Assembly: GCA_902798365.1 (NCBI GenBank)
Contig: CADBWP010000048.1
Coordinates: 1 to 41,029, forward strand
DNA: 41,029 bases
From: an uncultured Ruminococcus sp.
GTDB taxonomy: Bacteria > Bacillota > Clostridia > Oscillospirales > Acutalibacteraceae
Direction: 5' to 3'
Each line of letters opens with the position of its first letter. Within the stretch, counting starts at the first letter, position 1. Position numbers and translations under genes: made by a program. This document shows positions 4,755 through 32,920 of this stretch, one piece after another. The notes under the pieces were generated by a model. That model did not search any database. It was given only the letters and a program-made list of their open reading frames with translations, and had not been told where the DNA came from.

Positions 4755-5234
4755 TTATTCCGTTTCCGTTTCTGTTTCGTCCTTCTTCTCCCTGAACGCG
4801 AAGAAGCGCTGACCCACGTAGTTGCAGGCGACAAAGGTGCATGCGCCTGCGGCAAGCGAAAGGTTGCCGGCAAATTTTTCAATGCTCCAGCCGAACATGC
4901 TCCAGCCGTTGGAGGTTGAAATCCACGAAACGAGCGGCGAGATCAAAACGTAAGCTATTACATAGCAGACGATGATGTTCAGCGCGAAGCGGAGCACGGG
5001 CTTCCAACCCTTCTCCTTGTTTTTGAAGGTGAAGTGCTTGTTGAGGAAGTAGCTGACTATGCTGCCTATCAAATTGCCGAGGAAGCTGGCGAGGATAACG
5101 CCCCAGTCGTATTTGTCCCAGCCGAACACATTGTAAAATACAAATTGCAGACCCATGCCCACAATGGTGTTGATTATGCCGACAAGGATGAATTTCAGGA
5201 ATTTTATATCGAAGAACTGCTTAAGCTTACTCAT
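4755..5234 (-). CDS. GtrA family membrane protein (putative lipid-linked sugar flippase)
   Basis: The protein has about 159 residues and four membrane helices, with the GtrA-family features FLKFILVGIINT near the N-terminus and FLNKHFTF in the middle. GtrA/GtcA proteins are thought to flip undecaprenyl-phosphate sugars made by a partner GT2. I chose the ATG at 5234 because GGAGG lies 6 bases upstream; the longer frame to 5270 adds a basic stretch without a site. It overlaps the end of the GT2 gene by 8 bases, so the two are coupled. The C-terminus is an acidic Glu/Thr tail. Confidence 0.88.
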   Translation of the reverse strand: MSKLKQFFDIKFLKFILVGIINTIVGMGLQFVFYNVFGWDKYDWGVILASFLGNLIGSIVSYFLNKHFTFKNKEKGWKPVLRFALNIIVCYVIAYVLISPLVSWISTSNGWSMFGWSIEKFAGNLSLAAGACTFVACNYVGQRFFAFREKKDETETETE

Positions 5235-6192
5235 CCTCAGCCTCCGCTTCTTCGTTGTGCTCATCCTCAAAATTCGAGAATTTAGTTATATATATCGGTC
5301 TGTCCTTTGCTTCCATGTATATCCTGCCTATGTATTCGCCCAAAACGCCTATCGACATCTCGGTAAGACCGCCGAGGAACAGCACCGCGCACAGCGTGGT
5401 GACATAACCGGGCGTGGTTATGCCGAAGAACAGCGTCTGAAACAGCGTGACTATGATGTAGATAAGCGAGATAACAAAGATTATCGCGCCCATCACCGCG
5501 GTAAAGCGCAGCGGAGCCACCGAAAAGCAGGTTATGCCGTCAATGGCGTATTTGAACAGCGACGAAAACTTCCACGAGGTCTTGCCCAGCTGACGGTCAA
5601 CGGTCTTGAAGCTTATCCATTTGGTGTTGAAGCCCACCCACGAGAAAATGCCCTTGGAAAACCTCTGCACCTCGCCCAGCTCCATAATCGAATCGACCAT
5701 CTGACGGGTCATCATGCGGTAGTCCATGGCGCCGTAGGGGTTTTTAACGTCGGTCAGCTTGTTTGAAAGCCTGAAAAACAGCTTTGAAAACAGCCCGCGA
5801 AAGAAGCTTTCGCCCTCGCGTTCGTCGCGCTTTGTGGCGCAGCAGTCGTAGCCGTTTTCCATCGCCTCAAGCATTTGGGGGAAAATCTCGGGCGGATGCT
5901 GCAAATCGGCGTCCATAACCACAACATAGTCTGCGGTGGTGTGCTGCAGTCCGGCGTACATAGCCGCCTCCTTGCCGAAGTTGCGCGAAAATGAAATATA
6001 TTTAACATTGTCAAAGCGCTTTGCAAGGCGCTTCATCACAAGATAGGTCTTGTCGCGGCTGCCGTCGTTCACCAAAATGTAGCGAAAGGCATAGTCGGGC
6101 AGGGTATCTATCACCTTGTTGGTTTCCTCAACAAAATGCTCAAGCCCCTCCTCCTCGTTGTAGCAGGGCACGACCAAATCAATTGTTTTCAT
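5227..6192 (-). CDS. GtrB/CsbB-like polyprenyl-phosphate glycosyltransferase (GT2)
   Basis: The 321-residue protein has an N-terminal GT2 domain with VVPCYNEEEG, VNDGSRD and the metal-binding DAD motif followed by LQHPPE. It ends in two membrane helices and a conserved LGEYIGRIYMEAKDRP segment. This is the architecture of enzymes that move a sugar from a nucleotide donor to undecaprenyl phosphate on the cytoplasmic face. The C-terminal tail is acidic. The ATG at 6192 is preferred over a GTG at 6201, since a weak GGTG lies at normal spacing before it. It is paired with gtrA and divergent from yfhO, which together suggest a three-component glycosylation system. Confidence 0.9.
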   Translation of the reverse strand: MKTIDLVVPCYNEEEGLEHFVEETNKVIDTLPDYAFRYILVNDGSRDKTYLVMKRLAKRFDNVKYISFSRNFGKEAAMYAGLQHTTADYVVVMDADLQHPPEIFPQMLEAMENGYDCCATKRDEREGESFFRGLFSKLFFRLSNKLTDVKNPYGAMDYRMMTRQMVDSIMELGEVQRFSKGIFSWVGFNTKWISFKTVDRQLGKTSWKFSSLFKYAIDGITCFSVAPLRFTAVMGAIIFVISLIYIIVTLFQTLFFGITTPGYVTTLCAVLFLGGLTEMSIGVLGEYIGRIYMEAKDRPIYITKFSNFEDEHNEEAEAEDE

Positions 6193-6250
6193 ATGTATCA
6201 CCGGTTATAATATATTGTAATACAGCGGCAAAAGCAGGCCGCTGTTTTTA

Positions 6251-6280
6251 ATTATAGCAAATATACGGTCAAAAGTCCAA
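6251..6280 (-). promoter_or_regulatory. Promoter of the gtrB-gtrA pair
   Basis: On the minus strand TTGGAC (6280-6275) and a perfect TATAAT (6256-6251) are 18 bases apart, about 60 bases upstream of gtrB. Confidence 0.6.
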
Positions 6281-6317
6281 GGTTTTTTAAAAAATTTGTA
6301 TTTTTTTGATTTTTGTG

Positions 6318-6346
6318 TTTACCTGAGCCGCAAAACGTGATAGAAT
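6318..6346 (+). promoter_or_regulatory. Promoter of the yfhO-like gene
   Basis: TTTACC (6318-6323) and TAGAAT (6341-6346), extended by TG one base upstream of the -10, are 17 bases apart. The -10 is good and the -35 is weak. Confidence 0.5.
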
Positions 6347-6386
6347 ATACAATGTATGATTATTTCTATCGGAGGTACCCTTTCTT

Positions 6387-13386: not shown

Positions 13387-14304
13387 ATGAACACAAAAGG
13401 AAAAAAGGGTGTTGACATCTCCTCGCTCAACGGCGACGTCAATATTCAAAAGGTAAAAAACGCGGGCTACGACTTTGTTATGATACGCTGCGGCTACGGC
13501 GACGACTTAGCCGTGCAGGATGATACCCGTTTTGAGAGCAACGTTAAAAAATGCGAGGCGGCAGGCGTTCCGTGGGGCGCTTATCTGTATTCCTACGCGC
13601 TTAACACGGAGGACGCAAAAAGCGAGGCGCGGCATGTGATCCGTCTGCTGAAAAACAAGCGTCCCACCCTGCCTGTCGCATTTGACATCGAGGACGGCGA
13701 CGGCTACAAGCAGCGTCACGGTATGCCCTCAAACGCAACGCTCAGGGCTATTTGCAAAACGTTTTTGTCCGAGATAAAAAAGGCGGGCTACTATCCCATG
13801 CTCTATTCGTCGCTCAGCTGGCTAAACGACCGGCTTTACGACAAAAGCCTGCTCAACAGCTACGACGTATGGGTGGCGCAATGGAACTCCACCTGCGACT
13901 ACAAGGGCGAATACGGTATGTGGCAGTACGGCGGCGAGCAAAACTTTATCGACGGCAACAGTATCCCCGGCGTCGGCGTTATCGACAAGGACAGGTGCTA
14001 CAAGGACTACCCGACCATAATCAAAAACGGCGGCTACAACAACTGGCCTGCCCCAAGGGCGCTCGACACCTCGGGCTATCAAAAGGGCGACGACAGCCTC
14101 GGCGTGCTTGCCCTTAAGGAAATGCTGCTCACGGCAAAAAAGCTGGGCATAGTCACAAACGGCATGGACGAAAACTCAATATTCGGCGAGGGCACGCTCA
14201 TCGACGTAAACCAGGTGCTCGCGCGCGGCGGCTACCGCCAAAACGGTATAGCCGGTGTTGGCTTTATGAAGTACCTTGCAAAGCTTACAAGGGATAAAAT
14301 CTAA
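13387..14304 (+). CDS. GH25 lysozyme (N-acetylmuramidase), no signal peptide
   Basis: The first 205 or so residues form a GH25 domain. Asp10 in GVDIS and Asp100/Glu102 in AFDIED match the catalytic acids of the Cellosyl/endolysin family, which cleave the MurNAc-GlcNAc bond of peptidoglycan. Residues about 215-305 form a second domain. Its alternating LKEML, FGEGT and GGYRQNGIAGVGFMKYL elements suggest a diverged PG_binding_1-type wall-binding module. No signal peptide or membrane helix is visible, which is unusual for a housekeeping autolysin and usual for a phage endolysin; no phage genes are nearby. The start has GAAAGGCGG upstream. Confidence 0.88.
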   Translation: MNTKGKKGVDISSLNGDVNIQKVKNAGYDFVMIRCGYGDDLAVQDDTRFESNVKKCEAAGVPWGAYLYSYALNTEDAKSEARHVIRLLKNKRPTLPVAFDIEDGDGYKQRHGMPSNATLRAICKTFLSEIKKAGYYPMLYSSLSWLNDRLYDKSLLNSYDVWVAQWNSTCDYKGEYGMWQYGGEQNFIDGNSIPGVGVIDKDRCYKDYPTIIKNGGYNNWPAPRALDTSGYQKGDDSLGVLALKEMLLTAKKLGIVTNGMDENSIFGEGTLIDVNQVLARGGYRQNGIAGVGFMKYLAKLTRDKI

Positions 14305-14398
14305 GGCAACACCGCACAAATCAAGGCGCACGGCTTGCTTGAATATTATTCCGTCAGCTTGCCCAAAAAATCTCGGCAAGGCGTCAGCCTTACCTCGA
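14303..14398. repeat. MITE-like repeat, copy A (right end missing)
   Basis: It begins AAGGCAACACCGCACAA, its first two bases forming the end of the lysozyme stop codon. It matches the 22615 and 32783 copies for about 96 bases, as far as TTACCTCGA, and then stops. The right terminal inverted repeat is absent; the next base pairs are the end of the convergent aquaporin gene. Confidence 0.88.
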
Positions 14399-20088: not shown

Positions 20089-21237
20089 ATGGCAGAAAAA
20101 AGAGATTATTACGAGGTGCTCGGCATAAACAAGGGCGCCTCGGACGATGAAATAAAAAAGGCGTACCGCCAATGCGTAAAAAAATACCATCCCGACCTTC
20201 ACCCCGACGACAAGGAATGTGAGGAGAAGATGAAGGAGGCAAACGAGGCGTATGAGGTGCTGTCCGACAAGGACAAAAAGGCGCGCTACGACCAGTTTGG
20301 TCACGCGGGCGTTGACCCCAACTACGGCGCAGGGGCAGGCGGAGGCCCCTTTGGCGGAAGCCCGTTCGGCGGCGGCATAGACCTTGAGGATATTTTTTCA
20401 AGCTTTATGGGCGGCTTCGGCGGCAGGCGTTCGCGCGGAGCAAACGCGCCGTCTCGCGGCAACGACATAGAAACCAACATAACCATCACCTTTGAGGAGG
20501 CTGCAAAGGGCTGCAAAAAGACAGTCAGCTACAGCTGCACGGGCACCTGCGACGAATGTCACGGTACGGGCGCACAGCCGGGAACCCAGGCAAAAACCTG
20601 TACGGTCTGCGGCGGCTCGGGCACAGTCACCGACAACCAGCGCACCGCGTTCGGTGTTTTTCAGACCCAGCGCGCCTGCGACGCCTGCCACGGCAAGGGC
20701 AAGATAATCGACTCTCCCTGCCGCAAGTGCAGCGGCTCGGGCAGGCAAAGAAAAAACCGCACCGTGGATATCAACATTCCGGCAGGCATACGCGAGGGTC
20801 AGATCCTCAATGTGTCGGGTCACGGCAACGCCGGCTACAACGGCGGCCCCTCCGGCGATCTGCACGTTGTTGTGGGCGTGCGCAGGCACAGCCTGTTTGA
20901 GCGCCGCGGCGACGACGTCTGGTGCGACCTTCCCATTACCTATGCCCAGGCTGTGCTCGGCACCGATGTTACGGTTCCCACTCTGGACGGAAAGGTTCGC
21001 TACACAATTCACGAGGGCACTCAGCCGGGCGACGTGTTCAAGCTTAAGGGCAGGGGAATCCCGCATCTTGGCGGTCGCGGCAAGGGCGATCAGTACGTCA
21101 AGGTGGTTGTTGAGATACCGAAGAACCTGAACGCAAAGCAAAAGGAGCTGGTGCGGCAGTTCGATTCCTCTATAGGCGAGAAGAACTACGCAAAGCGCAA
21201 AAGCTTTTTCGATAAAATAAAGGACTTGTTTGACTGA
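20089..21237 (+). CDS. dnaJ: Chaperone DnaJ (Hsp40)
   Basis: A 382-residue type I Hsp40. The J domain (about 1-70) has the HPD triad in KYHPDLHPDD. A Gly/Phe-rich linker (about 82-105) is followed by four CxxCxGxG zinc repeats (about residues 149-224: CDECHGTG, CTVCGGSG, CDACHGKG, CRKCSGSG) and the C-terminal substrate-binding domain. It delivers clients to DnaK and stimulates ATP hydrolysis. GGAGG precedes the ATG. Its stop codon overlaps the start of prmA by one base (TGATG). Confidence 0.97.
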   Translation: MAEKRDYYEVLGINKGASDDEIKKAYRQCVKKYHPDLHPDDKECEEKMKEANEAYEVLSDKDKKARYDQFGHAGVDPNYGAGAGGGPFGGSPFGGGIDLEDIFSSFMGGFGGRRSRGANAPSRGNDIETNITITFEEAAKGCKKTVSYSCTGTCDECHGTGAQPGTQAKTCTVCGGSGTVTDNQRTAFGVFQTQRACDACHGKGKIIDSPCRKCSGSGRQRKNRTVDINIPAGIREGQILNVSGHGNAGYNGGPSGDLHVVVGVRRHSLFERRGDDVWCDLPITYAQAVLGTDVTVPTLDGKVRYTIHEGTQPGDVFKLKGRGIPHLGGRGKGDQYVKVVVEIPKNLNAKQKELVRQFDSSIGEKNYAKRKSFFDKIKDLFD

Positions 21238-22111
21238 TGAACAGCTGGACGGAAATAAAGATAAGCGTTGACGCGGCTGATGTTGACCGCGCTGCCGACA
21301 TAGCCGGCGAGGCGGCTCCCGGCGGTATATATATAGAGGATTACCGCGCGCTGGAGCAGGAGGTCGAGGATATAGCGCATATCGACCTTATATCGACCCC
21401 GGCGAGTCTCCGGCCGAGGCGGTCACATTTCTTTCGGAGAGCTTTGCTTCCGCGGGAATAAAGCATGAGATCGAGCTGCTGGATTGCGCCGAGGAGGACT
21501 GGCGCAACAACTGGAAGCAGTATTTTAAGCCAATTGCCGTTGGCAAGGGCCTTATGATAGTGCCGAGCTGGTACGAGGATTACGACGCCGGTGACAGGAT
21601 GGTGCTTAACATCGACCCCGGTCTTGCGTTCGGCACGGGCGGTCACGAAACCACCCGCCTTTGCCTTGAAATGTGCGAAAAGTACATGAAGCCGGGCGAT
21701 AAGGTGCTTGACGTGGGCTGCGGAAGCGGTATTCTGAGCATTGCCGCCCTGCTTATGGGCGCCGACAGCGCTGTTGGCGTTGATATTGACGAAAAGGCGG
21801 TGCAGACAGCCGCCGAAAACGCGGAGCTTAACGGCGTTGCCGACCGATATACCGCCGTGTGCGGCAGCTTTACCGACAAGGTCGAGGGCAAGTATGACCT
21901 TGTGCTGGCTAATATTGTAGCCGACGCGATAAAGTTTTTGTCAAAGGGCATAGCCGGTTTTATGAAGGACGACGCAGTTTATGTGATGAGCGGAATAATA
22001 GATACCCGCGCCGAGGAGGTAAAGGCGGAGGTCTCAAAATATTTTGAGATAACCGACGAGCACCTTGACGGCGGCTGGGCGTGCTTTGCCGCAAAAAAGC
22101 GTAAGGACTGA
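21237..22111 (+). pseudogene. prmA: Ribosomal protein L11 methyltransferase, frame-disrupted
   Basis: The N-terminal part (21237 to about 21390) reads WTEIKISVDAADVDRAADIA and IYIEDYRALEQEVEDIAHIDLI, a typical PrmA start. The continuation (DPGESPAEAVTFL, then DWRNNWKQYFKP and the SAM-binding DVGCGSGILSIAA and LANIVADAI motifs) lies in another frame from about 21391. The frame of the N-terminus stops at 21461. The join falls at two direct repeats ATATCGAC (21379-21386 and 21390-21397). About 15-20 residues usually present between the two parts are missing, so this looks like a small deletion, true or artefactual. A C-terminal fragment starting at 21554 would keep the methyltransferase fold without the full L11-recognition domain. 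Confidence 0.82.
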
Positions 22112-22222: not shown

Positions 22223-22262
22223 TACGATGTAAATGAAGCTTTTGATTATGCGTTTTTTCCGT

Positions 22263-22454
22263 GAGAGTTGCCCGCAGCTACCAATTTTGCCAAACATAAC
22301 AGTCGGATAACCGAGATGTCATGCAATTGTTTCTTTGAGAGTTGCCCACAGCTACCAATTTTGCCAAACATAACAGTCGGATAACCGAGATGTCGTGCAG
22401 TTATTTCTTTGAGAGTTGCCCACAGCTACCAATTTTGCCAAACATAACAGTCGG
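22263..22454. repeat. 74-bp tandem repeat, about 2.6 copies
   Basis: Units start GAGAGTTGCCC at 22263, 22337 and 22411, exactly 74 bases apart. They are nearly identical through CAGCTACCAATTTTGCC, CAAACATAACAGTCGG and the GATAACCGAGATGTC segment. The third unit stops after AACAGTCGG, where the next array begins. No gene is seen in 22176-22800 apart from the repeat islands. Confidence 0.95.
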
Positions 22455-22573
22455 GACACCGAGGTATAGCTGTGAACCGACCTTTCTGCCCTGAAATAAA
22501 AACAGACTTTTCTTAGAGAGTGGACACCGAGGTATAGCTATGAACCGACCTTTCCGTCCCGAAATAAAAAACT
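22455..22573. repeat. 68-bp tandem repeat, about 1.7 copies
   Basis: GACACCGAGGTATAGCT starts at 22455 and again at 22523. Both units contain GAACCGACCTTTC and GAAATAAAAA. It directly abuts the 74-bp array and shares the ACCGAG word with it, suggesting a common origin. Confidence 0.9.
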
Positions 22574-22614: not shown

Positions 22615-22766
22615 AAGGCAACACCGCACAATTCAAGGCGCACGGCTTGCTTGAATATTGTTCCGTCAGCTTGCCCAAAAAATCTCGGCAAGGCGACAGC
22701 CTTACCTCGACCTGACGAAAAATCTTACTGTGCAATCCGCACACCTGAATTATGCGGTATTGCCTT
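22615..22766. repeat. MITE-like repeat, copy B (full length, 152 bp)
   Basis: The left end AAGGCAACACCGCACAATTC and the reverse complement of the right end, AAGGCAATACCGCATAATTC, form 21-bp terminal inverted repeats with two mismatches. The interior contains short hairpins (TTCAAG/CTTGAA, AAGGC/GCCTT) and no gene. It differs from copy C by an extra stretch of about 24 bases near 22710-22733. Confidence 0.92.
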
Positions 22767-22800
22767 AAAAAAAGCAATCAAATATCGGGAGGTAACACTC

Positions 22801-23436
22801 ATGAAAAAAACAAATAAAAGAGAAACGATAAATCTTTTCTTTTCCGCTTTTTTGATAATCGCATTCATTGTTTGCGCAAATTTCTTTTCTAACTTTACCG
22901 CAAGCATAGACACGGTACCCGCACAGATCATCACCGTTCTGGTGTATGCCGTGTTCGGTCTGCTGCTGTTTTACGCAACAAGAGTGGGCGACGGCAAGGC
23001 AGTCAAGCGCTTTTCACCGCTTACGCTTATTATTCTGGTGCTGCCCACGCTGTATATCATTGTCGCTTCGATCGCCGCGTTCATGCCCCTGCACGATGTG
23101 TTTGCCGCAGATGCGCTGACGGGCAAGCTCAGCGTTATAACCGCGCTTTCGTCGGTGGCTTTGGGCTACGGACTTCCCTACAGCTTTTTCAGCGGCTTTG
23201 AGCTTGCGTCGGAGGACGACGAGGAGCCCGAGGAGGAAGACGAGCGTCGCGTGCTTGCAGGCGGCATCGAGGCAGACCTGTTAGAGGCAGACGAGATAGC
23301 CGACGCCGTTGAGGCTGAGGAAGAGGAAGCCGCAATGCAGGAGACCGCTCCCGCCGCCGATAAGGCACAGGAGACGGCGGAGGAAAACGATGAGTCCGAG
23401 GATTCTTCCGATACAGAGGAAGACGACGCGGAGTAA
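22801..23436 (+). CDS. Membrane protein with long acidic C-terminal tail
   Basis: A 211-residue protein with an N-terminal basic stretch, four hydrophobic helices (about residues 10-27, 38-57, 69-90 and 108-125) and a cytoplasmic-type tail of about 80 residues dominated by Glu, Asp and Ala. I do not recognise the family. I place the start at ATG 22801, preceded by GGGAGG at 8 bases. The open frame runs back to 22540 through repeat copy B, but that extension has repeat-derived sequence and no ribosome site. Followed by a long-loop terminator. Confidence 0.75.
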   Translation: MKKTNKRETINLFFSAFLIIAFIVCANFFSNFTASIDTVPAQIITVLVYAVFGLLLFYATRVGDGKAVKRFSPLTLIILVLPTLYIIVASIAAFMPLHDVFAADALTGKLSVITALSSVALGYGLPYSFFSGFELASEDDEEPEEEDERRVLAGGIEADLLEADEIADAVEAEEEEAAMQETAPAADKAQETAEENDESEDSSDTEEDDAE

Positions 23437-23648: not shown

Positions 23649-23677
23649 TTGACTTTTGAGTGCTGTTATAATATAAT
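23649..23677 (+). promoter_or_regulatory. Promoter of the aminosugar cluster
   Basis: TTGACT (23649-23654) and TATAAT (23672-23677) are exactly 17 bases apart. This is the best promoter before the run of genes 23737-31003 and may serve all of it. Confidence 0.85.
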
Positions 23678-23736: not shown

Positions 23737-24867
23737 ATGATACCTTTTAACGTACCTCCGTTTTTGGGAACGGAACCGGACTATATCATGCAGGCAGTCA
23801 AGGCGCAGAAGATCTGCGGCGACGGTCAGTTTACAAAGCTCTGCAACAAGTGGCTTGAGGACAAGACCGGCACAGCCAAGGCGCTGCTCACCACCTCCTG
23901 CACCCATTCGCTTGAGATGGCTGCGCTGCTGCTCGACATTCAGCCCGGCGACGAGGTCATTATGCCGTCGTTCACTTTTGTATCTACAGCCGACGCTTTT
24001 GTGTTGCGCGGCGCAAAAATAGTCTTTGTCGATATCCGTCCCGATACCATGAATATAGACGAAAAGCTTATTGAGGACGCGATCACCGACAAAACAAAGG
24101 CGATCGTGCCTGTTCACTACGCCGGCGTTGCCTGCGAGATGGACACAATTACCGAGATAGCAAAAAGGCACAACCTCGCCGTTGTTGAGGACGCGGCTCA
24201 GGCTGTTATGTCCGAGTACAAGGGCAGAGCTCTTGGAACCATCGGCGACTACGGCTGCTACTCCTTCCACGAAACCAAAAACTACAGCATGGGCGAGGGC
24301 GGCGCGCTGCTCATAAAGGATCCCAAAATGGCAGACGAGGCGGAGATCATCCGCGAAAAGGGCACCGACAGAAGCCGCTTTTTGCGCGGTCAGATAGATA
24401 AATACACCTGGGTAAACTTCGGCTCGTCCTATCTTCCCAGCGATATGAACGCCGCTTATCTGTGGGCTCAGCTTCAGAAGGCGGACATGATAAACGACAA
24501 CCGCCTTGCTTCGTGGCAGCGTTACTACGACGCCTTTGAGGAGCTTGAGCGCGACGGCTTTGTTGAGCGCCCGATCATTCCCGAGGACTGCAAGCACAAT
24601 GCCCACATGTTCTACCTCAAAACAAAGGATATCGAGGAGAGAACGCGCCTTATCTCTTATCTTAAGGAAAACGGCGTTATGGCGGTGTTCCACTACATTC
24701 CGCTCCATTCCGCTCCCGCAGGCAAAAAGTTCGGACGCTTCCACGGCGAGGACAAATACACCACGCGCGAGAGCGAGCGTCTGGTAAGACTGCCCATGTA
24801 CTACGGCCTGACGGACGAGGACATCACCAAGGCGATCGACGCGGTCATCGCGTTTTATAAGGGTTAA
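23737..24867 (+). CDS. wecE: dTDP-4-amino-4,6-dideoxygalactose transaminase (WecE/RffA type)
   Basis: The 376-residue PLP enzyme belongs to the DegT/DnrJ/EryC1/StrS family. It resembles E. coli RffA/WecE closely: MIPFNVPP start, LLTTSCTHSLEMAALLLD, YTFVSTADAFVLRGAKIVFVD-type core, and Lys181 in SFHETKNYS as the Schiff-base lysine. WecE converts dTDP-4-keto-6-deoxyglucose plus glutamate to dTDP-Fuc4N. AAGGAAGGGAT lies before the ATG. rfbA and rfbB in the same run would supply the substrate. The strong likeness to the enterobacterial enzyme could mean transfer between phyla, though the base composition looks like its neighbours. Confidence 0.93.
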   Translation: MIPFNVPPFLGTEPDYIMQAVKAQKICGDGQFTKLCNKWLEDKTGTAKALLTTSCTHSLEMAALLLDIQPGDEVIMPSFTFVSTADAFVLRGAKIVFVDIRPDTMNIDEKLIEDAITDKTKAIVPVHYAGVACEMDTITEIAKRHNLAVVEDAAQAVMSEYKGRALGTIGDYGCYSFHETKNYSMGEGGALLIKDPKMADEAEIIREKGTDRSRFLRGQIDKYTWVNFGSSYLPSDMNAAYLWAQLQKADMINDNRLASWQRYYDAFEELERDGFVERPIIPEDCKHNAHMFYLKTKDIEERTRLISYLKENGVMAVFHYIPLHSAPAGKKFGRFHGEDKYTTRESERLVRLPMYYGLTDEDITKAIDAVIAFYKG

Positions 24868-24870
24868 GCT

Positions 24871-25389
24871 ATGAGCAACAACGTTACAATCAGAAAAATC
24901 ACCGAGGCGGACACCGCCAAGATAGTAAAGTGGCGCAACGCCCCTTCGGTGGTTGAGCATTTTATATACAGAACTCCGCTTACCGAGGAGGCTCACCTCA
25001 ACTGGTTCCATAACCGCATCGAAACGGGTGACGTCGTTCAGTTTATTATCTGCGACGGCGAAAACGAGGTCGGCTCGGTTTATCTCAGAGATATAGACCC
25101 CGTCAACAAAAAGTGCGAGTACGGCATTTTTATAGGCGAGGAATCCTGCCGCGGCAGGGGTGTCGGCTCGGCGGCGGCAAGGCTCGCGCTTGACTACGCC
25201 TTTGAGGAGCTTAAGCTCAACCGCGTGTTTTTGCGCGTGTTTGCGGACAACCCCCGCGCTATAAAGAGCTATGAGAACGCGGGCTTTAAGAAAGAGGGCG
25301 TGTTCCGCGACGACGTTATCATAGACGGCACGGGCTATGACATGGTCTTTATGGGCATTTTGAGAAGAGAGTGGAAAAAGGAGGCTTGA
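24871..25389 (+). CDS. GNAT N-acetyltransferase, probably acting on the dTDP-aminosugar
   Basis: The 172-residue protein has the GNAT fold. The acetyl-CoA loop is R-G-R-G-V-G-S near residues 94-100, followed by LALDYAFEELKLNRV and a DNPRAIKSYENAGFK segment as in RimJ/RimL-type enzymes. It starts 3 bases after the aminotransferase, so the most likely substrate is dTDP-Fuc4N, giving dTDP-Fuc4NAc, the role WecD plays in E. coli. It is more like the RimL/PseH subgroup than WecD itself, and protein N-terminal acetylation cannot be excluded. Confidence 0.82.
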   Translation: MSNNVTIRKITEADTAKIVKWRNAPSVVEHFIYRTPLTEEAHLNWFHNRIETGDVVQFIICDGENEVGSVYLRDIDPVNKKCEYGIFIGEESCRGRGVGSAAARLALDYAFEELKLNRVFLRVFADNPRAIKSYENAGFKKEGVFRDDVIIDGTGYDMVFMGILRREWKKEA

Positions 25390-25393
25390 TACA

Positions 25394-26347
25394 ATGCCGA
25401 AAATATCCTTTGTGATCCCCTGCTACCGTTCACAGAATACCATAGGAACGGTGGTGGATGAGATCGTCTCCACCGTTACCAAGCGCGCGGAGTACGACTA
25501 CGAAATAATCCTTGTAAACGACAGCTCGCCCGACGGCGTGTTCGGCACCATAACCGAGCTTGCGCAGAATAATCCCCATATAACGGGCATCGACCTTGCA
25601 AGCAACTTCGGTCAGCACTCGGCTATTATGGCGGGCTTCGGATATGTAACGGGCGATGTTGTGGTTTGTCTTGACGACGACGGCCAGACGCCCGCAAACG
25701 AGATGTTCTCGCTTATAGACAAGCTCGGAGAGTTTGACCTTGTGTTTGCCGAATACAAAAACAAGCAGCACTCGGGCTTCCGCAACTTCGGCAGCAAGAT
25801 AAACGACAAGATGGCTCAATGGCTTATCAACAAGCCCAAGGAGCTCAAAATAATGAGCTACTTTGCCTGCAAGCGCTTTGTTATCGACGAGGTGCTGCGT
25901 TACCCCAACCCGTTCCCCTACATCAGCGGTCTGCTGCTCCGCGTTACCAACAAGGTGACCAATGTAGAGGTTCAGCACCGCGAAAGGCTCGAGGGCGAAA
26001 GCGGCTACAGCTTCGGCAAGCTTTTGCTGCTGTGGGTAAACGGCTTTACATCTTTTTCGGTAAAGCCGCTGCGAATAGCCACCTTTATGGGCGTGTTCAC
26101 GGCTATAATCGGCTTTTTGTACGGGCTTTACATAATTATCAATAAGCTGATAATCAATCCCGCCGCCCCCCTGGGCTACAGCTCTACCATGGCGGTAATG
26201 CTGTTTGTCGGAGGTATGCTCATGCTTATGCTGGGCATGATCGGCGAATATGTGGGAAGAATATACATAAGCATAAACCGCTCGCCTCAGTATGTGGTGC
26301 GCAGAACCGTAGGACGCGGAGTGAAGCAGGATGAAGAAAAGGTTTGA
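25394..26347 (+). CDS. ArnC-like polyprenyl-phosphate glycosyltransferase (GT2)
   Basis: The 317-residue protein has FVIPCYRSQN, VNDSSPDG, NFGQHSAIMAGF and a metal-binding LDDDGQTP motif (D94-D96). Two C-terminal membrane helices and LGMIGEYVGRIYISINRSPQY follow. The NxGQHSAIMAGF segment is the same as in ArnC, which loads 4-amino-arabinose derivatives on undecaprenyl phosphate. In this operon the likely donor is dTDP-Fuc4NAc. It overlaps the next gene by 17 bases. Confidence 0.9.
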   Translation: MPKISFVIPCYRSQNTIGTVVDEIVSTVTKRAEYDYEIILVNDSSPDGVFGTITELAQNNPHITGIDLASNFGQHSAIMAGFGYVTGDVVVCLDDDGQTPANEMFSLIDKLGEFDLVFAEYKNKQHSGFRNFGSKINDKMAQWLINKPKELKIMSYFACKRFVIDEVLRYPNPFPYISGLLLRVTNKVTNVEVQHRERLEGESGYSFGKLLLLWVNGFTSFSVKPLRIATFMGVFTAIIGFLYGLYIIINKLIINPAAPLGYSSTMAVMLFVGGMLMLMLGMIGEYVGRIYISINRSPQYVVRRTVGRGVKQDEEKV

Positions 26348-26681
26348 TATAAAGGTATATGGCCTGCTGCATTTTATTCTGTTCATGTACTCGCTTGTGG
26401 GCGTGTTTATGAAGCTCGCGTTTCAGCAGGAGTTTTTATCCTTTTACTTTTTACTGTTTGCGGGTCTTGCCGTTTTGGTTTTGGGCATTTACGCCCTGCT
26501 GTGGCAGCAGGTGCTCAAAAAGCTTCCGCTCACCGTGGCGTTCACCAACAAGGCGATATGCATAGCCTGGGGAATGCTGTGGGGCGCGCTGTTTTTGGGC
26601 GACTCAATAACATGGTATAAAATAGTCGGCTCGCTTATTGTTTTTGCGGGCGTTGTATTGGTGGTGACGAGCAATGAGTGA
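26331..26681 (+). CDS. EamA/SMR-like small membrane protein, ArnE-type flippase subunit
   Basis: A 116-residue protein with four membrane helices and the VLKKLPLTVAF...WGALFLGD pattern of EamA/SMR folds, as in ArnE. Its start lies inside the end of the GT2 gene and its end overlaps the next small membrane gene by 8 bases, so the three are translationally coupled. By analogy with ArnE/ArnF, the two small proteins would form a heterodimer moving the lipid-linked sugar to the outer face. Confidence 0.78.
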   Translation: MKKRFDIKVYGLLHFILFMYSLVGVFMKLAFQQEFLSFYFLLFAGLAVLVLGIYALLWQQVLKKLPLTVAFTNKAICIAWGMLWGALFLGDSITWYKIVGSLIVFAGVVLVVTSNE

Positions 26682-27045
26682 CGGACAGCTTGTACTTATT
26701 TTTTCGTTTGTGTTCCTGTTCTCGGTGCTCATTTCCTCGGTATCGCAGATAATGCTCAAAAAAAGCGCCGACAGAACATACGACACAAAGCTCGGGGAAT
26801 ATCTCAATCCCCTGGTGATAGCGGCATACGGCATGTTTTTCTGCTCAATGCTCATCACCATGTATTGCTACAAGTTCGTGGATGTTTCCGCGGGACCCAT
26901 CTACGAGAGCGCGGGCTACATCTTTGTGGCGGTTTTGGGATACTTTTTCTTAAAAGAGAGATTTACAACAAAAAAAGTCATCGGAATGCTGCTGATCCTT
27001 GCGGGCATAGCGCTGTTTTCGCTCGGAGGACTTCTGCCGTTCTGA
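26674..27045 (+). CDS. EamA/SMR-like small membrane protein, ArnF-type flippase subunit
   Basis: A 123-residue protein with four helices. It has SQIMLKKSADR after helix 1, VDVSAGPIYESAGYIFVAVLGYFFLKERFT and a final glycine-rich helix, the core of the EamA half-domain. It is distinct in sequence from the partner encoded just upstream, which fits a heterodimer. The two together equal one full-length ten-helix EamA transporter in topology only approximately. Confidence 0.78.
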   Translation: MSDGQLVLIFSFVFLFSVLISSVSQIMLKKSADRTYDTKLGEYLNPLVIAAYGMFFCSMLITMYCYKFVDVSAGPIYESAGYIFVAVLGYFFLKERFTTKKVIGMLLILAGIALFSLGGLLPF

Positions 27046-27067
27046 CACAGAGGAAAGTGGGGATAAT

Positions 27068-28528
27068 ATGAAGATAAAAGAAGCGTTTTTGGAAAAATAC
27101 CGCTCCGACAGGGTTTTGCTCGGAGAGTGGATAATGCTGGGCGCTACCGTGCTGTTCATGTTTGTGGCTATCTCTTTTGTGGATATGCACAGCCTGACCA
27201 TCTGGTCAACCAACGTGCTCGACGTCACCTTTGACGGCAACATCCGCAACCTGTACGAGTTTACCGCCAAAAACCTGCACAACGTTCAGCACCAGTACCT
27301 GGGCAGCGAGCTGTTTTCGGTGCTTCCGCTGTCTATCTGGAACATTCCCATCTGGATAGCGCAAAGATTCTTCGGCAAGGACATCATGCATTCTGCGGTG
27401 CTGATGGCGTGGTCAAAGCTTTTCGGCATTTTGCTTACGGGCATCATGCTCAAATACACCCACAAGATAACCATGCTCATCACAAACGACAGAATAAAGG
27501 CTATGTGGGCGGTGTTCCTCACCGCAAGCTCCACCTTTATTTATCTGGGAGTTTATTACGCCGGACAGAACGACATCATTATGATGGTTCCGTCGGTAAT
27601 CGGCATTTACTGCCTGCTAAAGGGCAGCCAAAAGGGCTTCATCATCTGGTCGGCGGTGGCTATCGCCATAAAGCCCTTCTTCCTGTTTGCCTTCCTCGCC
27701 GTGCTTCTGCTTTATGAGAAGAACATCATCAAGGCGATTTTAAAGGCTGCCGTCAGCGTATCGGGACTTGCGCTTCAGAAGCTTATTTTCCTCGGCGCGC
27801 CCATGTACAAGGAGTCGATCGAGCTGGGACCCTCAAAGCACATGCTTGAGCAGATGTTCCCCACAAACCTCGACACCTGCTTCGGCGGCATATCGTTCTT
27901 TGCAATAGCGCTTGTGCTGATACTTCTGTACGCATATACGCGCGACTTTACGCTTGACGACGTTCGCGCAGGCGAGGTTCACATTGCAAAGTATGTAATC
28001 TATTTTGTAACGCTCACCAATACGGCGTATCTCATGTTCTCGCCGTTCACCTATTACCGTCTGGCCACCCTTGCGCCGTTCCTCTATATTATGATGGTTC
28101 AGCACAAGAGGATGTACTTCTACAACGGAATCCTCGAAACCTCTATGGCTGCGGGACTTCTGCTCAAGATGGGCTTCCGCCAGAACACCAGCCTTTTCCG
28201 CGCAAAGTCGCTCAATCTTTCGCTTATTCAGCGCTTCTTCGGGTATTCGGTGCCCATTGGCGGAGAGGAAAAGGCATACACCAGCATCAGCACCTGGCTC
28301 AGAGACAACGACAGCCTGCTTATTTACTACACTCCGCTGTTTTCGGGCGTAGCCGTTGTATGCGCCGCGCTGCTGCTCATCCTCAACCATCCCGAGGAGA
28401 AAATCAAAACACCCATAAACGGCGACAAAAACTGCCGCGTGCTTTTGTGGGGCAGAATTTTGATGATCATTCCCTTTATCATATTCACCATCTGGCTGTT
28501 TATGAAGGCGCCTATAAAGAACTATTAA
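27068..28528 (+). CDS. GT-C-like multi-pass membrane glycosyltransferase (putative)
   Basis: The 486-residue protein has about ten membrane helices. A first external loop carries an acidic TFDGN segment and a later loop has YAGQNDI, reminiscent of the GQNDI-type motif of GT87/PIG-M-like GT-C mannosyltransferases. It is not clearly ArnT. Position directly after the GT2 and the flippase pair suggests that it transfers the flipped sugar to a cell-surface acceptor. The AGAGGAAAGTGG-GGATAAT region supplies its ribosome site. Family assignment is tentative; a polymerase role is possible. Confidence 0.6.
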   Translation: MKIKEAFLEKYRSDRVLLGEWIMLGATVLFMFVAISFVDMHSLTIWSTNVLDVTFDGNIRNLYEFTAKNLHNVQHQYLGSELFSVLPLSIWNIPIWIAQRFFGKDIMHSAVLMAWSKLFGILLTGIMLKYTHKITMLITNDRIKAMWAVFLTASSTFIYLGVYYAGQNDIIMMVPSVIGIYCLLKGSQKGFIIWSAVAIAIKPFFLFAFLAVLLLYEKNIIKAILKAAVSVSGLALQKLIFLGAPMYKESIELGPSKHMLEQMFPTNLDTCFGGISFFAIALVLILLYAYTRDFTLDDVRAGEVHIAKYVIYFVTLTNTAYLMFSPFTYYRLATLAPFLYIMMVQHKRMYFYNGILETSMAAGLLLKMGFRQNTSLFRAKSLNLSLIQRFFGYSVPIGGEEKAYTSISTWLRDNDSLLIYYTPLFSGVAVVCAALLLILNHPEEKIKTPINGDKNCRVLLWGRILMIIPFIIFTIWLFMKAPIKNY

Positions 28529-28540
28529 GGAGTTGAAGCT

Positions 28541-29413
28541 ATGAAAGGCATAATTCTTGCGGGAGGAAAGGGCACAAGGCTCTATCCCATGACAAAAACC
28601 GTTTCCAAGCAGCTGCTTCCGGTTTATGACAAGCCGCTCATTTACTATCCGCTGTCCATCCTTATGCTGGCAGAGATAAGAGACATCCTTGTTATCTCAA
28701 CGCCCGAGGACACCCCCATATACAAAGAGCTTTTGGGCGACGGCTCGCGGCTCGGCATTTCAATCAGTTATGCCGTTCAGGAAAAGCCCAACGGACTTGC
28801 CCAGGCGTTTATTCTGGGCGAGGAGTTCATAGGCGACGACAGCGTCTGCCTCATTCTTGGCGACAATGTCTTTTACGGTCAGAACTTCCCCAATATGCTG
28901 CTTAAGGCAAAGCAAAAGCAGCAGGGCGCTACCGTGTTCGGTTATCCTGTGCTCAAGCCCTCCGACTTCGGCGTGGTTGAGTTTGACGCAAACGGCAAGG
29001 TGCTGTCAATCGAGGAGAAGCCCGCCAAGCCCAAGTCGAACTACGCGGTTCCCGGACTTTACTTCTACGACAACAATGTTATCCGTTACGCCAAGAGCAT
29101 CAAGCCCTCGGCAAGAGGCGAGCTTGAAATATCTTCCATCAACAGCATTTACCTTGAAAACGGCGAGCTCGACGTTGTTCTGCTGGGCAGAGGCATGGCG
29201 TGGCTCGACACCGGCACACCCGGCGGACTGCTTAAGGCTGCCGAGTATGTGCAGACCATACAGTCTATGCAGGGCTTGTACATCAGCTGCATAGAAGAGA
29301 TCGCGTGGCGCAAGGGCTACATCACCACCGAAAAGCTCAAAGAGCTGGGTGAGGAGCTTAAAATGACCGAATACGGACAGTATCTGATCAATTTAGCCGA
29401 GGACAACAAATGA
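28541..29413 (+). CDS. rfbA: Glucose-1-phosphate thymidylyltransferase
   Basis: The 290-residue protein begins [18 protein letters not shown], with the nucleotide-binding loop and [23 protein letters not shown] carries the metal-binding Asp, and [20 protein letters not shown] completes the RmlA signature. It forms dTDP-glucose from dTTP and glucose-1-phosphate, the first step to the dTDP-4-keto-6-deoxyglucose used by the aminotransferase. rfbC and rfbD are not in the window, so the local product is unlikely to be only rhamnose. Stop overlaps the next start (ATGA). Confidence 0.97.
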
Positions 29414-29871
29414 CAGGCGCAATAAAAAAGCTTTCGGCGGCGGCGCTTTTGGCTGTGACAATGCTTATGCTGTGCGCCTGCTCGGGCGAAAAGCCCGCCT
29501 ACGTCGGCACATGGACGGTTGAAAGCTACGAATGGGCAGACGAGCTGCACAGGGATAACAATGCCGGCTACGAGGCGACCGTGATACTCAACGAGGACGG
29601 AACATACAGCTTATCCGAGTATTACTACAATCTTCCCGAGCCTGTCAATTCAAGGGAAAGCACCCACGAAGCCCGCGGCTCATATACCGTCGGCGAGGGT
29701 CAACTTGTTTTGAAGGCGGATTACGCCAAGTCTGTTTTTAACGGTCAGACGTCGGAAACGAGCAAACCCGAAAACGACGTTCTCACGCTTAAGCAGGACG
29801 GAGAAAAGCTTTCCTACGTTTTAGGCGATCCAAACTTCTTTTCCTATGTAACCTTGAAAAAAGAGGGATAG
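29410..29871 (+). CDS. Lipoprotein of unknown function
   Basis: A 153-residue protein with a lipoprotein signal peptide: basic start, hydrophobic run and LCAC lipobox with Cys24 as the likely lipidated residue. The mature part has a [12 protein letters not shown] start and repeated beta-strand patterns ([25 protein letters not shown]) that suggest a small lipocalin-like barrel. It is coupled to rfbA by a 4-base overlap, but a role in sugar transfer is only a guess. Confidence 0.78.
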
Positions 29872-29950
29872 ACCGGTCGCCGCGCAATACAAACAAGCTA
29901 AACCAATGTATTATTTATATAGATAATAATATTATACGAGGAGATTCAAT

Positions 29951-31003
29951 ATGAAAAACATTCTTGTTACGGGCGGAGCGGGCTTTATCGGCTCCAACTT
30001 CGTTCACCATATGCTCAAAAACCACGACTACAACATCATCAATATCGACTCGCTGACCTATGCGGGCAACCTTGACAACCTTACCGACATCGAAAATGAT
30101 CCCCGTTACACCTTCCTCAAGACCGACATCCGCGACCGCGAGGCGCTGACCGAGATCTTTGAGAAGTACGACATAGACACGGTGGTCAACTTTGCTGCGG
30201 AAAGCCACGTTGACCGTTCCATCACCGAGCCCGAGATCTTCCTCACCACAAACGTTATCGGCACACAGACGTTGCTCGACGTTGCCAAGCGTTTTTGGAA
30301 GGTCGATCCCGACGACAAGTATTCGCGCGAGTTTAAGGACGGCGTAAAATACCTGCAGGTTTCCACCGACGAGGTATATGGCGCTCTGGGCAAGACGGGA
30401 ATGTTTGAGGAAACCACTCCGCTGTCGCCCAACAGCCCCTACTCGGCGTCAAAGGCGAGCGCGGACATGGTTGTAAGAGCATACCACGAGACCTTCGGAA
30501 TGCCCGTCAACATCACACGCTGCTCAAACAACTACGGTCCCTATCAGTTCCCCGAAAAGCTTATTCCGCTTATGATCAACAACTGCAAAAGCGGCAAGCA
30601 GCTTCCCGTATATGGCGACGGAATGCAGATCCGCGACTGGCTGCATGTTTCCGATCACTGCAACGCCATCGACACCGTGCTTCACAAGGGCGTTATCGGC
30701 GAGATCTACAACATAGGCGGCAACAACGAAAAGGCTAATATCGAGATCGTTAAGCTGATCATCAAGACCCTCGGCAAGTCGGAGGATCTTATCAAGTACG
30801 TAAAGGACAGACCCGGCCACGACCGCCGCTATGCCATTGACAACACCAAAATCACCACTCAGCTCGGCTGGGCTCCCGCATACACCTTTGAGCAGGGCAT
30901 TGCCGAAACCATCGAGTGGTATCTTGCCAACGAGGAGTGGATGAACAAGATCACCTCGGGCGACTATATGAACTACTACGAGAAGATGTACAAAAAAGCA
31001 TAA
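29951..31003 (+). CDS. rfbB: dTDP-glucose 4,6-dehydratase
   Basis: The 350-residue extended SDR enzyme has the NAD-binding TGGAGFIGSNF loop, the STDEVYG motif with catalytic Thr/Asp/Glu, and YSASKASAD with the active-site Tyr and Lys. RDWLHVSDHC and GHDRRYAID are RmlB hallmarks. It makes dTDP-4-keto-6-deoxyglucose from the RfbA product. CGAGGAGA lies before the ATG. It closes the aminosugar run and is followed by a terminator. Confidence 0.97.
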   Translation: MKNILVTGGAGFIGSNFVHHMLKNHDYNIINIDSLTYAGNLDNLTDIENDPRYTFLKTDIRDREALTEIFEKYDIDTVVNFAAESHVDRSITEPEIFLTTNVIGTQTLLDVAKRFWKVDPDDKYSREFKDGVKYLQVSTDEVYGALGKTGMFEETTPLSPNSPYSASKASADMVVRAYHETFGMPVNITRCSNNYGPYQFPEKLIPLMINNCKSGKQLPVYGDGMQIRDWLHVSDHCNAIDTVLHKGVIGEIYNIGGNNEKANIEIVKLIIKTLGKSEDLIKYVKDRPGHDRRYAIDNTKITTQLGWAPAYTFEQGIAETIEWYLANEEWMNKITSGDYMNYYEKMYKKA

Positions 31004-31021
31004 GCCATTGCAAAGGTTTTT

Positions 31022-31053
31022 CGGTCGGGAGGCGATCTTCCCGACCGATATTT
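31022..31053 (+). terminator. Terminator after rfbB
   Basis: CGGTCGGGA (31022-31030) and TCCCGACCG (31039-31047) form a 9-pair stem, then ATATTTG. The T tract is weak. Confidence 0.7.
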
Positions 31054-32026: not shown

Positions 32027-32783
32027 CTTGGTAAAAATGGAGTGGTACAAGCTGAGAACCACAAAGCTTTTTATTGTGCTGATGGCTATCGGTTTCGCAC
32101 TTAACGTCATTATTTGTGCGGTCATTCCCATAGTTGTAAAGCTGGTAGCTCCCAACGAGCCCGCCGCTCTTTCGGCGATTTCGGGTTCTATCGCCTCTCC
32201 TTTTGCAGGGCTTCTGATGATAATGGTGTATATCTCGGCGGTATCCTTCATGTATTCCGACTTTGCCGGCGGCTACATAAAAAACATTGCCGGTCAGGTA
32301 AAGAACAGGGGCAGCATTGTTATCGCAAAGCTCATCGTTGTTGCCATTCACAACCTCATCTTTTTTGCGGTCGGCTCTATCGGTAACGTACTCGGCTCGG
32401 CATTGGGCGGAAGCCTTGTTGTCGATTCCGAAATAGCGGGCGGCGTTTTCACCTTCCTGCTCAGATGGCTGCTCTCGATCGCCATTTGCTCCGTGCTTAT
32501 GCTGTTCGCGGTTGGAATAAAAACCAAGAGCTTCGCTATAGTAATGGCTGTCATTTTTGCTACGGGTTCGCTCAACCTGCTCTATCTGGGCGTCAACACC
32601 GCTATTATGACTATATTTAAGACGGAGGTCAACGTAGGCAACCTGTTCCCCGATACTCTCATGGGCTCGGTGGATGCAATAACAAACACAAACGTTATCA
32701 ACGCTGTTTTGGTTTCGGCTGTGTTCATAGTGTTGTTCACGGTGCTAACCTATGTTATCTTCAAAAAGCGCGACGTAAAATAA
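32019..32783 (+). CDS. ABC-2 type permease
   Basis: The 254-residue protein has six membrane helices and starts LNLVKMEWYKLRTTKLF, the usual cytoplasmic lead-in of BcrB/LanE-type permeases. Central SDFAGGYIKNIAGQVKNRG matches the family's coupling segment. It partners the ATPase immediately upstream. Its stop codon abuts MITE-like copy C. Confidence 0.9.
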   Translation: MLNLVKMEWYKLRTTKLFIVLMAIGFALNVIICAVIPIVVKLVAPNEPAALSAISGSIASPFAGLLMIMVYISAVSFMYSDFAGGYIKNIAGQVKNRGSIVIAKLIVVAIHNLIFFAVGSIGNVLGSALGGSLVVDSEIAGGVFTFLLRWLLSIAICSVLMLFAVGIKTKSFAIVMAVIFATGSLNLLYLGVNTAIMTIFKTEVNVGNLFPDTLMGSVDAITNTNVINAVLVSAVFIVLFTVLTYVIFKKRDVK

Positions 32784-32910
32784 AGGCAACACCGCACAAT
32801 TCAAGGCGCACGGCTTGCTTGAATATTGTTCCGTCAGCTTGCCCAAAAAATCTCGGCAAGGCGACAGCCTTACCTTGCAATCCGCACACCTGAATTATGC
32901 GGTATTGCCT
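32783..32910. repeat. MITE-like repeat, copy C (full length, 128 bp)
   Basis: The ends AAGGCAACACCGCACAATTC and TGAATTATGCGGTATTGCCT are inverted repeats. It is nearly identical to copy B apart from a gap of about 24 bases. It lies between the permease stop codon and the operon terminator. Confidence 0.92.
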
Positions 32911-32920
32911 AAATGCTTTC

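Follow-up and report, generated by a model that had tools for sequence, protein, structure and literature searches.

One gene run of an uncultured Ruminococcus is predicted to glycosylate across the membrane with a 4-acylamino-4,6-dideoxyhexose

Three-component glycosylation systems of Gram-positive bacteria, such as CsbB/GtcA/YfhO and GtlA/GtcA/GtlB, have been reviewed; in CsbB/GtcA/YfhO-type systems a GT-A-type glycosyltransferase of family 2 (GT2) makes a C55-P-sugar and is accompanied by a small membrane flippase and by a GT-C enzyme with low similarity between systems (PMC8035078). A run of nine co-directional genes on the + strand of an uncultured Ruminococcus sp. (positions 23737-31003 of the analysed stretch of 41,029 nucleotides of contig CADBWP010000048.1, here called the window; Table 1) resembles them in these components and probably encodes a transmembrane glycosylation system that is dedicated to a 4-acylamino-4,6-dideoxyhexose, most likely D-Fuc4NAc (4-acetamido-4,6-dideoxy-D-galactose) on undecaprenyl phosphate (Und-P). 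In the CsbB/GtcA/YfhO-type systems the flippases are GtrA- or Wzx-type and the sugar is galactose, glucose or GlcNAc, and a word search of the review text yielded no ArnC, SMR or EamA (PMC8035078). In the run, by contrast, the flippase would be a pair of EamA/SMR (small multidrug resistance) proteins, and the operon itself would provide for the synthesis of the sugar, a dTDP-aminosugar.

The Arn pathway (ArnBCEFT) for 4-amino-4-deoxy-L-arabinose (L-Ara4N) has an ArnC-type GT2 and the GT-C enzyme ArnT, and its Ara4N is UDP-linked, formylated and then deformylated. As proposed for the run, an amino sugar on undecaprenyl phosphate is flipped there by the SMR proteins ArnE/ArnF (PMC9574504). The run differs from it by its dTDP-linked 6-deoxyhexose, by a GNAT acetyltransferase, by having no deformylase and by proteins that miss the ArnC and ArnE cut-offs. 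The pentofuranose side-chain system of Citrobacter youngae O1/O2, alongside which a Bacillus example is mentioned, is likewise three-component and includes a GT-C enzyme and, as ORF14, a transporter resembling ArnE/EmrE, but it places a pentofuranose on polyprenyl phosphate, and the accessible parts of its description name one transporter gene and no aminosugar (PMC11127046). The Escherichia coli route to enterobacterial common antigen (ECA; RffH, RffG, WecE, WecD) leads to the same predicted nucleotide sugar and shares the RmlA, RmlB and WecE families; there, WecF works in the cytoplasm and places Fuc4NAc on a pyrophosphate-linked lipid (PMC7439462), whereas the run has a PseH-like GNAT for WecD and a single sugar is proposed on Und-P.

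Fuc4N in a clostridial surface polymer has been predicted before, namely in a capsule cluster of Clostridium butyricum with predicted dTDP-Fuc4N genes and TagGH homologues; this cluster is presented as one for a capsule, having three glycosyltransferases and a teichoic acid exporter, and not as one of the flip-and-transfer kind (PMC12342839). Mycobacterium marinum requires a gene with the annotation wecE for its normal lipooligosaccharide (PMC4703794). The original prediction for this run, which was made from the DNA letters alone, had stated that no described Gram-positive pathway is known to have this exact layout. Among the literature matches listed, in several cases a part of those retrieved (40 of 126, 15 of 10,320, 10 of 38 and 15 of 1,146), neither the layout nor Und-P-Fuc4NAc was described, which is a weak negative. 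The statement is to be tempered, as the C. butyricum dTDP-Fuc4N genes and the M. marinum wecE were reported earlier. The classes of the parts are known and clostridial Fuc4N had already been predicted; what appears new, as far as this weak negative carries, is their combination. A survey of 12,939 complete genomes reported Fuc4NAc only in Gammaproteobacteria (PMC7725333). It may have missed clostridial Fuc4NAc because the ECA acetyltransferase is replaced by another GNAT. A rare sugar that this survey placed only in the group of E. coli is here predicted in a clostridial genome; if true, Clostridia too would have paired lipid flippases of the ArnE/ArnF-like kind, and the prediction points to a model-less GT-C family with a testable acceptor.

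From the gene content we infer every reaction as well as the stereochemistry of the sugar, the lipid and the acceptor. RfbA and RfbB would convert glucose-1-phosphate to dTDP-4-keto-6-deoxyglucose, WecE would aminate its C4 and the PseH-like GNAT would N-acetylate the amino sugar in the place of WecD. The ArnC/GtrB-type GT2 would transfer the sugar onto undecaprenyl phosphate, the EamA/SMR proteins, as an ArnE/ArnF-like antiparallel heterodimer, would flip Und-P-Fuc4NAc, and the GT-C protein would attach the sugar, as a single unit, to an acceptor on the surface, which is most likely a polymer of the wall or one resembling teichoic acid. The original prediction contained the same chain of dTDP-Fuc4NAc being made, loaded, flipped and transferred; the gene content is consistent with it but supports it indirectly, and the C4 stereochemistry, the acyl group, the lipid and the acceptor are predictions.

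Table 1. Features of the gene run in the window and, in the last five rows, ATP-grasp ligase genes near wecE at other loci (locus:positions)
Feature	Position	Strand	Remarks
Promoter-like site	23649..23677	+	sigma-70-like TTGACT-17-TATAAT, 11/12 consensus matches; ends 59 bases 5' of wecE
WecE-type pyridoxal phosphate (PLP) aminotransferase	23737..24867	+	predicted dTDP-4-keto-6-deoxyglucose to dTDP-Fuc4N
GNAT acetyltransferase, PseH-like	24871..25389	+	predicted N-acetylation of the 4-amine
DPM1/ArnC/GtrB-type GT2	25394..26347	+	PF00535; predicted polyprenyl-phosphate Fuc4NAc synthase
EamA/SMR subunit 1 (EamA1)	26331..26681	+	predicted N-in; PF00892 30.4 bits (cut-off 28.2); Lys/Arg bias +5
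EamA/SMR subunit 2 (EamA2)	26674..27045	+	predicted N-out; PF00892 43.3 bits; Lys/Arg bias -7
GT-C-like membrane protein	27068..28528	+	predicted transferase to extracytoplasmic acceptor
RfbA/RmlA glucose-1-phosphate thymidylyltransferase	28541..29413	+	TIGR01207 474.1 bits (cut-off 360.65)
Predicted lipoprotein, 153 aa	29410..29871	+	signal segment ending LMLCACSG; overlaps rfbA by 4 bases
RfbB/RmlB dTDP-glucose 4,6-dehydratase	29951..31003	+	wecE-linked group; TIGR01181 511.6 bits (cut-off 365.1)
Terminator-like hairpin	31021..31048	+	12 pairs, 3' of rfbB, weak T tail; proposed transcript end
ATP-grasp ligase	L048:12562-13791		no GNAT match
ATP-grasp ligase	L051:11131-12240		no GNAT match
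ATP-grasp ligase	L061:12248-13534		no GNAT match
ATP-grasp ligase	L061:15331-16476		no GNAT match
ATP-grasp ligase	L044:14476-15678	other strand	no GNAT match

The order of the run is wecE-GNAT-GT2-EamA1-EamA2-GTC-rfbA-lipoprotein-rfbB, with spacings in bases of 3 (wecE-GNAT), 4 (GNAT-GT2), -17 (GT2-EamA1), -8 (EamA1-EamA2), 22 (EamA2-GTC), 12 (GTC-rfbA), -4 (rfbA-lipoprotein gene) and 79 (lipoprotein gene-rfbB). The eight genes named in the original prediction indeed lie at the stated positions in one orientation and, up to rfbA, with overlaps or gaps of less than 25 bases. The gap of 80 bases that it placed before rfbB is 79 bases long, but it follows the lipoprotein gene, which had been missed, and not rfbA. 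The named genes have the character ascribed to them, the GT-C-like protein being an exception in that its sequence has no family match, and the labels ArnC-like and ArnE/ArnF-like hold for the GT2 and EamA families, not for the strict ArnC and ArnE cut-offs. The run is likely transcribed as a single unit because a promoter-like site precedes wecE and a hairpin follows rfbB, both calls being consensus matches only (promoter-like sites, 23 found vs 11.4 expected; terminator-like, 20 vs 14.7).

Related genomes were compared as a set of 59 genomes of nearer kin, own genome included, of which 10 contain wecE (wecE+) and 49 do not (wecE-). The run is not a chance arrangement, because a gene-order search, as suggested with the original prediction, found the order wecE-GNAT-GT2-EamA1-EamA2-GTC-rfbA-rfbB in eight other genomes (L016, L018, L020, L024, L025, L026, G013 and G006; L and G are our labels for loci and genomes). 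L042 has the same order with a GT-C only 32% identical. Within the stretches examined the order extends through rfbA, without rfbB, in L022 (a contig of G005) and L023, and ends after GT-C in L017 and L019, while L031 has the rest and no GT-C match. In G009 the cluster is kept but split, with GNAT-GT2-wecE and GTC-rfbA-rfbB on two contigs, and no EamA match was found in its two 14-kb stretches. Of 398 genomes sampled from the phylum, 21 have a WecE over its curated cut-off, and so do 10 of the 59 nearer kin (own genome in both). The pair rmlA and rmlB, which by the original prediction would speak against it if relatives of the two never co-occurred with the rest, is present in all ten wecE+ and in 18 of the 49 wecE- genomes (Fisher p 2.1e-4; within the genus 8/8 vs 12/28, p 0.0046); on this count the prediction is not refuted. 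The GT-C was found in 7/10 wecE+ vs 0/49 wecE- genomes (p 3.5e-7, or 2.7e-6 if a weak match in the wecE- genome G029 is counted; within the genus 7/8 vs 0/28). All these p-values are uncorrected for shared descent.

The wecE-linked RfbB proteins form a separate group, and in a tree of 32 rows a 100/100 branch lies between them and the rhamnose-type RfbBs (the tree covers loci whose RfbB match extends over 250 columns, and wecE+ genomes other than G038 and G043). On the wecE-linked side are the window, L016, L018, L020, L024, L025, L026, G006, G009, G013 and G024, with L031, L042 and L051 as more distant members, and on the opposite side are 16 of the 17 further copies that the genus has; identity to the window's RfbB is 77-96% for the wecE-linked copies and 57-65% for the other copies examined. 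Exceptions are the wecE+ genomes G005, G012 and G018, which have other-type RfbB only, and L075, where the other type adjoins wecE. A second RfbB copy of G001 falls on the wecE side, but its placement is unsure because of its long branch (0.87). Of the 17 other copies of the genus, 12 have the rhamnose gene rmlC no more than 10 kb away, compared with none of five wecE-linked copies (p 0.0096); this count was read by hand, becomes 11/16 without the long-branch copy and is weakened by short contigs. The own genome, G013 and G024 (81-94% complete) gave no rmlC match, which makes rhamnose an unlikely explanation for rfbAB there, single absences in the own genome being weak because it is 86% complete. 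Second copies of rfbA or rfbB were not found at E 1e-60 in this 86% complete genome either. The position of the run's RfbB in the tree suggests that it is a dehydratase dedicated to the wecE pathway.

RfbA, RfbB and WecE belong, as in the ECA route, to the RmlA, RmlB and WecE families, each over its cut-off (TIGR01207, TIGR01181 and TIGR02379). WecE scores 662.8 bits against TIGR02379 (cut-off 434.85) and 654.2 against the galactose-specific equivalog NF008687 (cut-off 375), which predicts the galacto epimer at C4; 253 of 365 aligned columns (69%) are identical to the solved chain 4piw_A. According to an ECA review, the active site of WecE comprises a PLP lysine together with an aspartate and a glutamine (PMC7439462), and the PLP-site motifs EDAAQ and FHETKNY are kept. 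The GNAT narrowly exceeds the PseH cut-off (TIGR03585, 98.6 bits vs 93.1), and WecD is not among the 17 families listed for it at E 0.001. Three of the six GNATs scanned in relatives also exceed the PseH cut-off (L016 97.6, L025 95.6, G013 96.8) and three do not (L041 86.5, L088 86.3, L042 88.6). WecD (TIGR02382) was over its cut-off in none of the 59 genomes, with one weak partial match (G051), while an E. coli control exceeded it. A PseH-like GNAT is therefore predicted to replace WecD.

The GT2 has the features of a polyprenyl-phosphate-type enzyme with C-terminal membrane helices, namely PF00535, two C-terminal hydrophobic segments (predicted membrane helices) and, as closest solved relatives, ArnC and sll0501, which we take to be GtrB-like; a DDD motif lies at residue 94. 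Its donor would be the dTDP sugar and its acceptor lipid undecaprenyl phosphate. The flippase slot of the three-component scheme is occupied by EamA proteins over the Pfam cut-off, not by GtrA, and flipping is predicted. For paired SMR heterodimers the criterion is adjacent genes with opposite Lys/Arg bias, and Asn is described as common at the central-Glu position of lipid-type SMR proteins (PMC9574504). The bias is positive in EamA1 and negative in EamA2 in all 28 pairs from 27 distinct contigs (loci with both proteins 85-150 aa, 30 rows per protein before pairing, L096-L125 left out; L022 and L143 are the same contig; membrane-segment borders were set by hand on the window proteins). At the hand-matched central-Glu column, EamA1 has Y/F and EamA2 has S/A/T in 28/28 each, so that no acidic residue and also no Asn is found there; both proteins thus lack the central glutamate in the first helix, as lipid-type SMR proteins do. 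In the PDB, EamA2 is weakly similar to SLC35B1 and EmrE (best E 0.0039), EamA1 gave a single chance-level match, and ArnE NF011625 is not listed for EamA2. As the bias is opposite and the central acidic residue absent, the pair agrees with a fixed antiparallel, ArnE/ArnF-like heterodimer of the lipid type, and a role as drug or guanidinium exporter is disfavoured.

The GT-C-like protein has no Pfam or NCBIfam family at E 0.001, and a PDB sequence search with its alignment gave 0 matches at E 1. A GT-C-like fold is predicted from its AlphaFold model (14 sequences; pLDDT 73.3, pTM 0.78), for which the top 15 Foldseek matches are all GT-C proteins (best E 0.033, query TM 0.21-0.41) and most of those listed from rank 16 onward are unrelated. 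The top 15 comprise subunits of oligosaccharyltransferase, glycosylphosphatidylinositol (GPI) transamidase and GPI mannosyltransferase as well as ALG12, ALG9, ALG3, DPY19 and PimE; the matched chain within each complex and its GT-C class are presumed. An aspartate, D39, which follows the first hydrophobic segment, is invariant in the 14 sequences, and no DxD is present there; a DxD-type motif in an outer loop is described for GT-C enzymes of three-component systems (PMC8035078). The GT-C changes fastest of the set, with a median identity to the window of 56% in the eight complete loci vs 75-94% for the other seven proteins (the better copy was used where a locus has two), as would be expected if acceptor or linkage varies between strains. 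Two GT-C genes stand in tandem in L018 (13343-16268) and L026 (13357-16291), 46-59% identical to that of the window, possibly for two acceptors or linkages. Profile comparison gave nothing that would equate the GT-C with the YfhO of the window or with either of two membrane proteins without a family in L041 (430 and 586 aa).

Several observations weigh against a Fuc4NAc system of this kind. The best NCBIfam match of the GT2 is far under its cut-off (ArnC NF007986, 184.3 bits vs 529), PgfS is likewise missed (160 vs 500), and EamA1 is under that of ArnE (NF011625, 23.6 bits vs 92); with these cut-offs missed, the case for lipid loading and flipping comes from general family membership and gene context. 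The Foldseek matches of the GT-C, at the query TM given above, are singly non-significant (0/216 at E 0.001), and its family hardly extends beyond the genus (of 391 genomes in the class, the own one and one other). No acceptor gene was identified. In a tally of the 47 of 80 wecE loci that have at least 8 kb on both sides, wecE often stands without the remaining genes (GT2 near 30 loci, GNAT 22, EamA pair 13, rfbB 11, rfbA 9, GT-C 7, none of them near 6). G012 has wecE, rfbA, rfbB, GT2 and the EamA pair with no GT-C or GNAT match, the wecE clusters of G005 and G018 lack rfbB and both rfbA and rfbB, respectively, and seven of the ten wecE+ genomes do have rmlC.

Some of these points would fit two separate functions, with rfbAB, wecE and the GNAT feeding cytoplasmic glycosyltransferases encoded elsewhere and the GT2, EamA and GT-C proteins handling a common sugar such as glucose: the missed cut-offs are the aminosugar-specific ones, and many wecE loci have no EamA pair or rfbAB nearby. 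Yet the GT-C tracks wecE across the genomes, G009 keeps its GNAT-GT2-wecE block though GTC-rfbAB sit elsewhere, and a GtrA/GT2/YfhO system of the window (4755-9221) could already serve a common sugar; we regard such a division as unlikely. It appears quite unlikely that the pathway is as proposed with only the epimer differing, so that the aminotransferase gives dTDP-Qui4N (viosamine) and the decoration is Qui4NAc. The C4 stereochemistry is not readable from sequence here, and the title of TIGR02379 itself reads '-D-glucose transaminase', but NF008687 is exceeded by 279 bits and the solved WecE, to which the protein is 69% identical, makes dTDP-Fuc4N in ECA synthesis (PMC7439462). A 4-amine that is left free or otherwise acylated, and serves a positive or aminoacylated wall charge as with Ara4N, we hold to be very unlikely. 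SMR pairs and ArnC-type GT2s do belong to the Ara4N route, and four loci without a GNAT match near wecE (L048, L051, L061, L044) have an ATP-grasp ligase in the neighbourhood. These four were picked by eye, however, no ATP-grasp gene was present among the scanned part of the ORFs (open reading frames) of the GNAT-less L038, L068, L055 and L079 (no ORF of L027 was scanned), a GNAT is part of the window cluster and of all eight other complete clusters, and Pfam and NCBIfam scans revealed no deacylase-like gene in the run.

Beyond the dedicated Fuc4NAc system of the window, a wider reading is tentatively put forward, which we think possible but would not favour: Clostridia might possess a modular class of N-acyl-Fuc4N decoration with a core of ArnC-like GT2, WecE and often RfbA/RfbB, in which N-acylation (by a PseH-like GNAT or an ATP-grasp ligase), flipping (by paired SMR or Wzx-like proteins) and the GT-C step (by this fast-evolving family or by YfhO) are exchangeable modules, resulting in variable surface sugars. 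If so, Fuc4N would be a common Gram-positive surface sugar, contrary to the view of it as confined to Gammaproteobacteria. In Mogibacterium kristiansenii (L038) one run holds a GT2, wecE, a Wzx-like protein (Polysacc_synt just over cut-off, 30.0 vs 28.2), rfbA, rfbB and YfhO with no GNAT match, which suggests the same logic with a different flippase and GT-C. L079 has wecE, rfbA and, further along, YfhO, and L088 has the different order wecE, EamA1, EamA2, GNAT, GT2. In L068 (Mogibacterium), rfbB and wecE are directly followed by a TagF-like glycerophosphotransferase (L068:11138-12742), hinting at a teichoic acid acceptor. The L-amino acid ligase domain PF18603 is part of the ATP-grasp ligases of L044 and of L048 (Anaerobutyricum hallii DSM 3353, with wecE-GT2-ATP-grasp), and the four ATP-grasp loci hint that a different group may go onto the amine. 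As the variant loci were chosen by eye from 80, they do not represent a rate.

The lipoprotein encoded between rfbA and rfbB matched no Pfam or NCBIfam family, and its only matches in the 59 genomes are in the own genome (C42, 36%) and in G013 (C135, 35%), neither on the contig of the operon. Relatives with a complete cluster have rfbA and rfbB within about 25 bases of each other, while in the window the two are 537 bases apart; the lipoprotein is probably accessory to the run.

The GC content across the run (0.48-0.53) is like that of the remainder of the window and does not point to a foreign composition. A 93-base identical direct repeat (22615 and 32783) was rejected as island boundary, its copies being dispersed genome-wide: repeats of about 93-131 bases are found at 22615-22768, 32783-32913 and 14303-14395 of the window, with at least 61 matching pieces in the genome (40 of 84 candidates scored), and are therefore uninformative on mobility. 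The gene 5' of the run (22801-23436) is present in 32 of the 59 genomes, all of one genus, and adjoins wecE in some. Stretches of 8.5-17 kb around it from eight wecE- genomes served as controls and gave no match to the other seven cluster proteins at the thresholds of the locus tally, in which GT2 and GNAT are near 30 and 22 of the 47 wecE loci. This location was rejected as diagnostic of the cluster, as the clusters of G005, G009, G012 and G018 sit at other sites. Further upstream, three tandem 74-base copies (78-100%) overlap two 49-base copies at 22253-22570, 5' of the gene at 22801. The prmA gene (21237-22111) seems frame-disrupted, with its first ~50 codons in one frame and the remainder in another; it is uninterrupted (306-313 aa) in three relatives (L016, L018, L025), and the break in the window could be an assembly error. 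The system at 4755-9221 is a second, canonical three-component system of the window and consists of GtrA (4755-5270, -), a GT2 (5227-6201, -) and YfhO (6387-9221, +).

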